Part shown: positions 47,127-57,291 of the stretch, piece by piece | Numbering within the stretch: position 1 is the stretch's first letter | Layout of the letters: each line of letters begins with the position of its first letter | From: Candidatus Poribacteria bacterium | Lineage (GTDB): Bacteria; Poribacteria; WGA-4E; WGA-3G | Reading direction: 5' to 3' | DNA: 64,000 nt | Assembly (NCBI GenBank): GCA_958295945.1 | Contig: OY282386.1 | Coordinates: 1,553,371 to 1,617,370, forward strand | The notes under the pieces: model-generated | Database searches by the model: none | Seen by the model: only the letters and a program-made list of their open reading frames with translations | Told to the model about the DNA's origin: nothing | Made by a program: the position numbers and the translations under genes

Positions 47127-47220
47127 ATATAATCAACATTACATTGGTAACTACCACAATTCATCAGACCTTCTAATCCATCGGGATATTCAGCATAATA
47201 AATTATCCATTTCATTCGGT

Positions 47221-47755
47221 GTCAAAACCCCGTTGCTTTAGCACGGGGATGTCCACACCGCCTTTGTTGTGTCAAGAAATAAACTTGACTTTTTGTCTAA
47301 AATGTGGTATACTCTTAGTATCATTCGGATAGGAAAGCAATCACCTACGCTCTGTAGGTGTCCTATCCACTCAATTGCTTGAGTTGGAATGATGAATGAT
47401 AAAATCATTCAATACCACATTCGGTTGTATACGCTGCAAGTTACGATCCTTGCCAGTCGTTTGTGATGAGTTCTGCATTCGCTATATAGGATTGTGTAGG
47501 TGTTCCCTCCACAACTGCGAAATAAACAGAACGCAAAACTAAAGTATCTGGGTCGCTCAGTGGGGATACCTCATAAGGACCCTGTTAGTCGTGTCTTGGC
47601 GGGCACCCACACAGTTGCTGTGCAGGTCAACTTGACTTAAAATCAAGTGAGTATGCTATAAGCATATAAAAGATGCCCACACTTTCAAAAAACGGAGGGT
47701 GTCCGTGAGAAAGTGACCTAAAGGAAACCCCATCCTTTAGGTTGGGGAGCCGTCA
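47221..47755. mobile_element. tnpB-deleted IS200/IS605-type remnant
   Basis: The left end has a hairpin with a bulged T, CCCCGTTGCTTTAGCACGGGG-like (47228-47248), typical of IS200/IS605 subterminal structures. A promoter follows at 47285. Near the right end, one frame (about 47510-47640) reads NKQNAKLKYLGRSVGIP and a tail ending VAVQVNLT, which resembles the C-terminal tail of a TnpB protein; the rest of tnpB is gone. The right end (47717-47747) has two overlapping hairpins (CCTAAAGG/CCTTTAGG and CCCCA/TGGGG, loop TTTA) before GAGCCGTCA. In intact elements this 3' part encodes the omega guide RNA. Internal deletion has made the copy non-autonomous. Confidence 0.6.
47285..47313 (+). promoter_or_regulatory. 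Strong sigma-70-type promoter in the IS remnant
   Basis: TTGACT (47285-47290), a 17-bp spacer, and TATACT (47308-47313) give five of six matches in each hexamer. It points into the IS200/IS605-type remnant. Any transcript would cover the tnpB tail and right-end hairpins. Confidence 0.6.
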
Positions 47756-47821
47756 TCCCACTACAAACGATTTGCTTACTATGGTGAAGTATAAAAATAT
47801 ATCTACACTTTCTATCTACAG

Positions 47822-56111: not shown

Positions 56112-56196
56112 AATATCCTCCTCGTTGGATTATAGTTTATTAGGTAGTTGGTTGCAAGATATTCGCGTCTTTACATATAGCATCAAAGATATTTAG

Positions 56197-56924
56197 TCGC
56201 TCCAGCGGAGCGATATGTTTATAGAAAAATGTTATGTACTCTCCTCCGCTCCAGCGGAGCGGTATGTTGATTGCTACTTGCTGCCTTCATAATAGCCGAA
56301 CATTATGCTTCTGGAACATTCTCATCAATACTTTCAAATACGTATTTCTCATCGTGAGCAATATCAAAACGTTTTAATAACTCAAGATATTCCTCTCTGA
56401 ATGTTCTATGAGAATGATGGTTCTCTTGGTTTCGGATGTACCTTGCGACATCTCCTAACTGCGAATGTGAATAGGAAAATGCACTAAATCCTTCCTGCCA
56501 TTTGAACTGACCTACTACCCAACGTTTTTTGTTGATAAATTTTGTTGAACTCACCTTAATGTCTCTTACTAAATCAGAAAGAGAAAAATCTGGGGTCATA
56601 CCTATAAGGATGTGAATGTGGTCAGGCATTGAATTGATTTGTATAACCTTTTGTTTTCTATTAGTAACAATGCCAGTGATGTATCGGTGAAGTTCCTCTT
56701 TGTGATGTTTTGGAATGAGAGACTGCCTACCCTTAACAGCGAATACGATGTGGATGTAGAGTTGGGTATATGTATTTGCCATAGGGCTATCTTCCTCTAA
56801 AGCACTAAATTATTACATTTGAAGATTCCGATACCAATTTAACGGGTCCATTCACATTCCGCTCCGCTGGAGCGGATGTCGGCATTATACCGTGTACTAT
56901 AAACATATCGCTCCGCTGGAGCGG
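56197..56924. mobile_element. RAYT element: Y1 transposase flanked by paired REP palindromes
   Basis: Two palindromes lie at the left (56197-56213 TCGCTCCAGCGGAGCGA; 56246-56262 CCGCTCCAGCGGAGCGG), and two in the opposite orientation at the right (56859-56875; 56908-56924, loop GCT). Each pair has palindromes 49 bp apart around a shared spacer that contains ATATGTTTATAG. Between the pairs sits the transposase gene. This is the layout of REP-associated tyrosine transposases, in which the paired REPs are the substrate. Confidence 0.85.
56303..56782 (-). CDS. REP-associated Y1 (HUH) transposase
   Basis: The product has 159 residues. TQLYIHIVFAVKGRQSLIP starts the Y1 fold, INSMPDHIHILIGMTP carries the HUH pair (His55 and His57), and DVARYIRNQENHHS holds the catalytic Tyr115 with Q119. 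All active-site residues are present, so the enzyme may be functional. Unlike IS200 transposases, it lies among GCTCCAGCGGAGC palindromes, which marks it as RAYT-like. The Phe/Trp-rich block KWQEGFSAFSYSHSQLG is typical. It sits just upstream of the nitroreductase gene on the same strand. Confidence 0.9.
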   Translation of the reverse strand: MANTYTQLYIHIVFAVKGRQSLIPKHHKEELHRYITGIVTNRKQKVIQINSMPDHIHILIGMTPDFSLSDLVRDIKVSSTKFINKKRWVVGQFKWQEGFSAFSYSHSQLGDVARYIRNQENHHSHRTFREEYLELLKRFDIAHDEKYVFESIDENVPEA

Positions 56925-57040
56925 AGAAACAGATGAATGCTTACATATTCTTCACTAAGTGTTCGATCTGAAACTGAAAATGTTCAAGGACATTGTTCGG
57001 ATTGAGAATCAATCACCTTATAGTATTAAGTGCTAATCTT

Positions 57041-57291
57041 TCGCTCCAGCGGAGCGATATGTTTATAGAAAAATGTTAGTCCTCTCTATCGCTCCAGCGG
57101 AGCGGTATGTGCGGGATTCACTTGCAGTCTCAAATGAATGTTTTTCCAAATTATGTTATTCTTGTTCAGGCAGCAACTTGCGTTACATTAGAGATTCTGG
57201 GACCAACTTACGTGTAATTCACATACCGCTCCGCTGGAGCGGATGTCGGCATCATACCGTGTACTATAAACATATCGCTCCGCTGGAGCGG
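57041..57291. repeat. Non-autonomous REP-pair element
   Basis: Palindromes at 57041-57057 and 57089-57105 match the left pair of the RAYT element, and those at 57226-57242 and 57275-57291 match its right pair, including the spacers ATATGTTTATAGAAAAATGT and ATGTCGGCATxATACCGTGT. The 120-bp interior has no transposase. The copy probably moved using the enzyme encoded 260 bp away. Confidence 0.8.

Follow-up and report, generated by a model that had tools for sequence, protein, structure and literature searches.

A multi-copy IS200/IS605-type element without reading frames in a Poribacteria genome, with a TnpB-type guide RNA as its probable cargo

We analyzed a 64,000-nucleotide (nt) stretch of the genome of a Candidatus Poribacteria bacterium (GCA_958295945.1, contig OY282386.1, positions 1,553,371 to 1,617,370 of the forward strand), henceforth referred to as the window. 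It contains, on the forward strand and directly 3' of the tetranucleotide TTAT, a 550-bp element of the IS200/IS605 type without open reading frames (ORF-less). A sequence-only reading of this DNA had described a remnant at 47221-47755, in which the deletion of tnpB had brought a promoter close to the RNA-coding end of the element. The extent is corrected here to 47207-47756 (Table 1), and the element is one of 13 copies in the genome. The left hairpin with a bulged T (CCCCGT-T-GCTTTAGC-ACGGGG at 47228-47248), the TTGACT-17-TATACT promoter and the right-end hairpin with a TTTA loop are all present as first described. The outer stem of the left end consists of GGTGTC with GACACC or similar sequences in most copies, and of CCGCCAC/GTGGCGG or CCGAC/GTCGG in others. 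All of the 20 copies examined (13 from this genome and seven from relatives) have a TTGAC-type promoter with a 17-bp spacer, and the non-coding interior of the element comprises ~430 nt.

Table 1. Positions of the element and of its parts in the window
Feature	Position	Strand	Remarks
Target tetranucleotide TTAT	47203..47206	+	Outside the element; expected transposon-associated motif of the partner TnpB; same in 13 of 13 copies of this genome
ORF-less IS200/IS605-type element	47207..47756	+	13 copies in this genome; borders from flank comparison and from copy L006 with empty sites in seven relatives
Left-end hairpin, bulged T, covarying outer stem	47218..47259	+	Alignment of 13 copies
Sigma-70-like promoter TTGACT-17-TATACT	47285..47313	+	Spacing constant across copies
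5' leader domain	47321..47392	+	Stem P1 TCATTC/GAATGA; hairpin GGATAGGA/TCCTATCC; pseudoknot of AAGCAAT (47335-47341) with ATTGCTT (47374-47380)
Middle domain, structured	47393..47542	+	Contains helices 5, 6 and 8-10 of the 105-pair fold
Omega-RNA core, homologous to the tnpB 3' end	47543..47673	+	Model R1, 148 bits at the window copy
TGGCGG, predicted to pair with the terminus CCGTCA (47750-47755, just 5' of the guide)	47597..47602	+	
Extra hairpin region before the right end	47674..47727	+	Seven-pair helix, two pairs changed on both sides; not in TnpB elements
Right-end hairpin, TTTA loop, terminus GAGCCGTCAT	47728..47756	+	Hairpin itself 47728-47747; GAGCCGTCA reaches 47755
Flanking DNA, putative guide of the window copy	47757..47776	+	Directly behind the right end; guide role proposed from IS200/IS605 TnpB biology

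The genome, a single contig of 5.34 Mb that is 95% complete, was searched with BLASTN. The 12 other copies are ~550 bp long and 83-90% identical to the window copy (E values from 2e-139 to 4e-213). One of them (L013) aligns only from query position 53, and eight further loci match the left end only. Relatives of the element with 72-88% identity were found in four other Poribacteria genomes (G002, G009, G014 and G032). The flanking DNA differs behind each copy. For copy L006, which interrupts a conserved gene, empty sites were found in seven related genomes (G002, G024, G025, G028, G029, G031 and G034), where the joined flanks are contiguous from about position 4 to 498 of 500, at 70-73% identity. 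These empty sites, together with the TTAT ahead of the copies in this genome, show insertion 3' of the target without visible duplication. Another ORF-less element of ~560 bp (L074, G000:C1 at ~1.211 Mb) has the same left end and an unrelated, structured-looking interior.

Palindrome-associated transposable elements (PATEs) are recognized by subterminal hairpins, by insertion 3' of a short target that is not duplicated and by the lack of a transposase gene, and the element shows all three. It could be an ordinary PATE or miniature inverted-repeat transposable element, a passive sequence moved by TnpA in trans, whose structure serves single-strand transposition and whose RNA homology is merely inherited from tnpB. 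The hairpin ends, the TTAT target without visible duplication, the absence of ORFs and the multiple copies agree with the PATEs of Haloquadratum as described in PMC3119063. The palindromic IS605-type ends, the gene-less length and the absence of target duplication are common to these and to the PATE-like element of Halanaerobium, which, according to the description in PMC7290912, also retains the final 58 nt of tnpB along with its complete right end. Whereas the portions of these two sources compared here propose no RNA role, the promoter, leader and omega core of the Poribacteria element are conserved as a unit.

We assessed the fold of the interior on 17 complete copies (alignment A2, from which copies cut by contig ends and the broken copy L121 were omitted). 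RNAalifold predicted 105 pairs, with 97.5% of the cells paired and 35 pairs changed on both sides. The covariation score of this fold was equalled by none of 500 shuffles, and shifting the pairing partners lowered the paired fraction to 33-45%. On the strand of the element, 113 cells are G-U and 12 are A-C; although this count is biased because the fold was predicted with G-U pairs allowed, the excess favors RNA of this strand. Invariant columns make up 89% of the right-end hairpin, 53% of the omega core, 49% of the 3' hairpin and 35-36% of the leader and middle domains. No protein frame is kept in the alignment of 13 copies. A TnpB-derived reading frame was therefore rejected, as the frames vary among copies: what had been read as a frame resembling a TnpB C-terminal tail is not a conserved frame, while at the level of bases it shows homology to the tnpB 3' end, as detected by the model described below.

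TnpA requires only the ends of an element. The ends would suffice for transposition, yet conservation and covariation extend to ~350 internal bases and to a promoter whose spacing is fixed, and the omega core has the most invariant columns after the right-end hairpin. On balance, we consider a purely passive element unlikely. A decayed remnant of a full-length tnpB element, devoid of present function, would agree with the plainly broken copies elsewhere (L121 and L122) and with copies in this genome that are not very recent. We regard it as very improbable given that 13 copies have one 550-bp layout, which occurs in no tnpB element of this genome, and that the pairing is kept over 17 sequences. 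A remnant left by a deletion is not supported; the interior is a conserved structured RNA that has spread as a family of its own.

Nothing in the window reached the gathering score of an Rfam family, no relevant match was found over the element at E ≤ 10, and 14 tnpB and ORF-less loci were without a match at E ≤ 5. Stand-alone HEARO (IscB) omega RNAs likewise lack an adjacent nuclease gene, and IscB guides lie at the 5' end. The only HEARO match in the element scored 12.1 bits, on the other strand, against a gathering score of 83. IStrons likewise combine IS605 ends with structured RNA, and the interruption of a conserved gene by copy L006 would suit an interior that acts as a self-splicing intron and removes the element from transcripts. 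A comparison of 47200-47800 with Rfam 15 gave no group I or group II intron at E ≤ 10, and homologies to leaders and to omega RNA explain much of the interior, leaving this explanation scarcely credible.

The link of the right half of the element to tnpB was established with a covariance model (R1) in place of BLASTN. The model was built from 15 ORF-less sequences only (alignment A3, in which six of the 21 rows of A1 were omitted as identical or nearly so) and was tested on 21 sources, namely the window and 20 loci of the same genome, 14 of which are TnpB loci. Its matches were the window copy, a second copy (in L076) and, of the TnpB loci, L057 alone (77 bits, E=2e-18); the other 13 TnpB loci gave nothing at E ≤ 10. 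In the whole genome, R1 matches 14 places: the 13 copies and L057. Searches of 18 genomes of the genus and 72 of the order yielded more matches. We checked 18 of those in relatives, and 16 lie on tnpB 3' ends with a fixed offset of -37 or -38 nt, the R1 match starting at this distance behind a constant point of the tnpB C-terminal frame; the remaining two (L136 and L283) have no such frame. Because R1 matches both L057 and the tnpB 3' ends of relatives, we identify the right half as a TnpB-type guide (omega) RNA. The claim that a promoter and an omega-RNA-like end are retained without tnpB is thus supported.

L057 is an intact tnpB gene at ~3.426 Mb of G000:C1. Its protein of 394 amino acids has PF07282 and PF01385 above cut-offs. 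The RuvC-I motif is D-M-G, not D-P-G, and the protein is a bacterial TnpB, not a Fanzor. It has G-D at the place of the second RuvC glutamate of other TnpBs and, six residues ahead of its zinc finger, a glutamate that fits the relocated-glutamate (Ealt) pattern printed in PMC10711439. Of 13 TnpB frames tested in this genome, only that of L057 fits the pattern, as do three of four frames from relatives; L057 is the only TnpB of its subfamily in the genome. Named relatives of the protein belong to Candidatus Poribacteria at six out of six loci.

From the left end through the promoter, the window element is 91% identical to the TnpB element L057, whose target, TTTAT, is common to ORF-less copies. 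In relatives, all six ORF-less copies inspected lie behind TTAC, and they share both this target and another left end with the TnpB elements of the same subfamily there. Ends and target therefore change together in both kinds of element, TTAT/TTTAT in this genome versus TTAC in relatives. The sequence-only reading had proposed a search of the genome for full-length TnpB copies with the same right end: L057 has the matching RNA, although the right-end sequence itself differs. The ORF-less copies thus share their ends and their guide RNA with a nuclease locus. We conclude that the element probably belongs to a non-autonomous IS200/IS605-type transposon family that carries a TnpB guide RNA as its only cargo and is served by a TnpB in trans.

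Between core and terminus, TGGCGG is predicted to pair with CCGTCA, both invariant in 21 element rows. The same places in six out of six TnpB elements, which pass from the core directly to the right-end hairpin, read TGGCA and TGTCA, a single compensatory change from G-C to A-U at the fifth pair. As a longer fold pairs the terminus with another partner, the modeled pairing is likely and not proven.

The leader has a three-way layout with a pseudoknot. Stem P1 forms six out of six pairs in all 20 copies, the complementarity between loop and hairpin extends over 7 nt in 19 of 20, and in L010 the pseudoknot keeps six of seven bases by strict complement. Over 12 diverse sequences (alignment A8, 14 rows of A7 without the misaligned L072 and the divergent L088), the leader fold has 31 pairs, with 97.6% of cells paired and 19 pairs changed on both sides. 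A like architecture in other sequences was found at 23 loci that we took as tnpB leaders (alignment A5, comprising 22 of 29 leader matches, with four cut and three nearly duplicate matches omitted, and L160), with 28 pairs, 95.5% of cells paired and changes on both sides in all five pairs of the pseudoknot. The tnpB leaders are not recovered by a covariance model of the element leader (R2): the window copy scored 95 bits, L072 17 bits (E=0.012) and the rest near chance. For this reason, the likeness, judged by eye and by separate covariation tests, is one of architecture only; we infer that the two kinds of modeled leader may share common descent.

R2 leader matches occur in 26 of 55 genomes of the family, including those with ORF-less elements, often as a single copy (L245-L266, L270). 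Some stand ahead of other ORFs, either of a family without a Pfam match in the one member tested (seven genomes) or of a protein that looks by eye like a tetratricopeptide repeat protein (two genomes). The pseudoknot was found by script in 15 of the 23 R2 leader loci inspected and recognized by eye in five more.

The ~215 nt before the omega core and the further hairpin behind it form a conserved structured RNA found in no tnpB element of this genome, and no locus of this genome besides the 13 copies matches the middle domain. In three short ORF-less elements (L072, L073 and L179), a similar promoter and GGATAGG hairpin are combined with an omega RNA that belongs to another TnpB type, one with the canonical glutamate, which speaks for modular exchange among elements. 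The pseudoknot partner is present in L072 and absent in L073 and L179. In the window copy and several others, ATGTGGTAT at the -10 region (47302-47310) and ATACCACAT within the middle domain (47412-47420) are complementary.

Several observations weigh against a guide-RNA element served in trans. Covariation alone cannot separate RNA from folded single-stranded DNA. Similarity to the right end of a TnpB element, which the sequence-only reading called for, was detected by structure-aware search only; by BLASTN, the right half shares only ~25 bases with TnpB elements, at the end, and the termini differ (GAGCCGTCAT in ORF-less copies versus GAGTATGTCA in L057). Genome G002 (94% complete) has copies, yet both of its R1 matches are ORF-less. 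The copies in this genome, only 83-90% like the window copy, give no sign of very recent spread. Finally, we found no IS605-type TnpA in this genome and only one strong Y1 protein (56426-56770, reverse strand). We set this protein aside as a mobilizer, as it lies amid repeated CGCTCCGCTGGAGCGG palindromes (56170-57250) and resembles the transposases associated with repetitive extragenic palindromes. Y1 proteins resembling IS605 TnpA were found in G009 and G017, that of the genus-mate G017 behind a similar left end. The lack of an IS605-type TnpA makes present mobility in this genome doubtful, and the genome seems to have lost the TnpA needed in trans for transposition.

Since it keeps its promoter and a folded guide RNA that corresponds to a single tnpB gene of the genome, the element, judged from its sequence, probably borrows the L057 nuclease to protect itself. 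The promoter would drive an RNA of ~430 nt through the right end into the flank, and L057 TnpB would bind the omega part and trim it, as TnpB is described to do with its own mRNA (PMC10278001). The flank would serve as the guide. Once the element had left by transposition with TnpA in trans, TnpB would cut the empty site, TTAT plus flank, and repair would copy the element back. Omega RNAs of Fanzor "ghost" elements are described as functional with their nuclease in human cells (PMC10432273). Alternatively, the RNA could be a sponge or antagonist that ties up TnpB with no productive targeting and holds back the autonomous element. Thirteen RNA sources face one TnpB of the subfamily, and the core is conserved although the TnpB element has another right end, as a sponge would allow; a working guide RNA, however, requires flanks that differ from copy to copy and a terminus that can pair with the core, as predicted here, and we hold a sponge to be improbable. 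Within the trans-served reading, we tentatively propose, with less confidence than for the family itself, that 13 ORF-less copies supply a single relocated-glutamate TnpB, one nuclease guarding 14 loci, and that the pseudoknotted leader module (unmatched in Rfam 15, its architecture also heading tnpB mRNAs and some Poribacteria host genes) stabilizes the free RNA or recruits TnpB.

We compared the element with known systems. The omega RNA (or right-end element RNA) of IS200/IS605 and IS607 TnpBs, as presented in PMC10278001 and PMC10711439, likewise has its scaffold at the tnpB 3' end and the right end, a guide from the flank and a pseudoknot, whereas the Poribacteria scaffold is freed from coding and has added 5' and 3' domains. 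The ghost Spu-1 elements of the Fanzor SpuFz1 in Spizellomyces punctatus, in the account of PMC10432273, also have transposon ends around a conserved ~550 nt without a nuclease gene, a right-end omega RNA, many copies and a nuclease encoded elsewhere. That system belongs to a eukaryote and a Fanzor, in contrast to the bacterium, IS200/IS605 ends and D-M-G TnpB with relocated glutamate found here; unlike ghost Spu-1 as described there, the Poribacteria element has its own sigma-70-like promoter and a tnpB-type pseudoknotted leader. By analogy, the best reading of the family is as a bacterial counterpart of the Fanzor ghost loci. Our literature search found no description of ORF-less TnpB guide-RNA elements in bacteria, although we do not claim their absence from print.

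If the reading is true, guide-RNA-only elements would illustrate the separation of an RNA-guided nuclease from its guides. Such a separation would be a step towards CRISPR-like systems, where many guides are served by one effector. In the present case it would be readable in a single bacterial chromosome that offers a specific partner nuclease and testable guides, with 13 other TnpB loci without an R1 match as negative controls.
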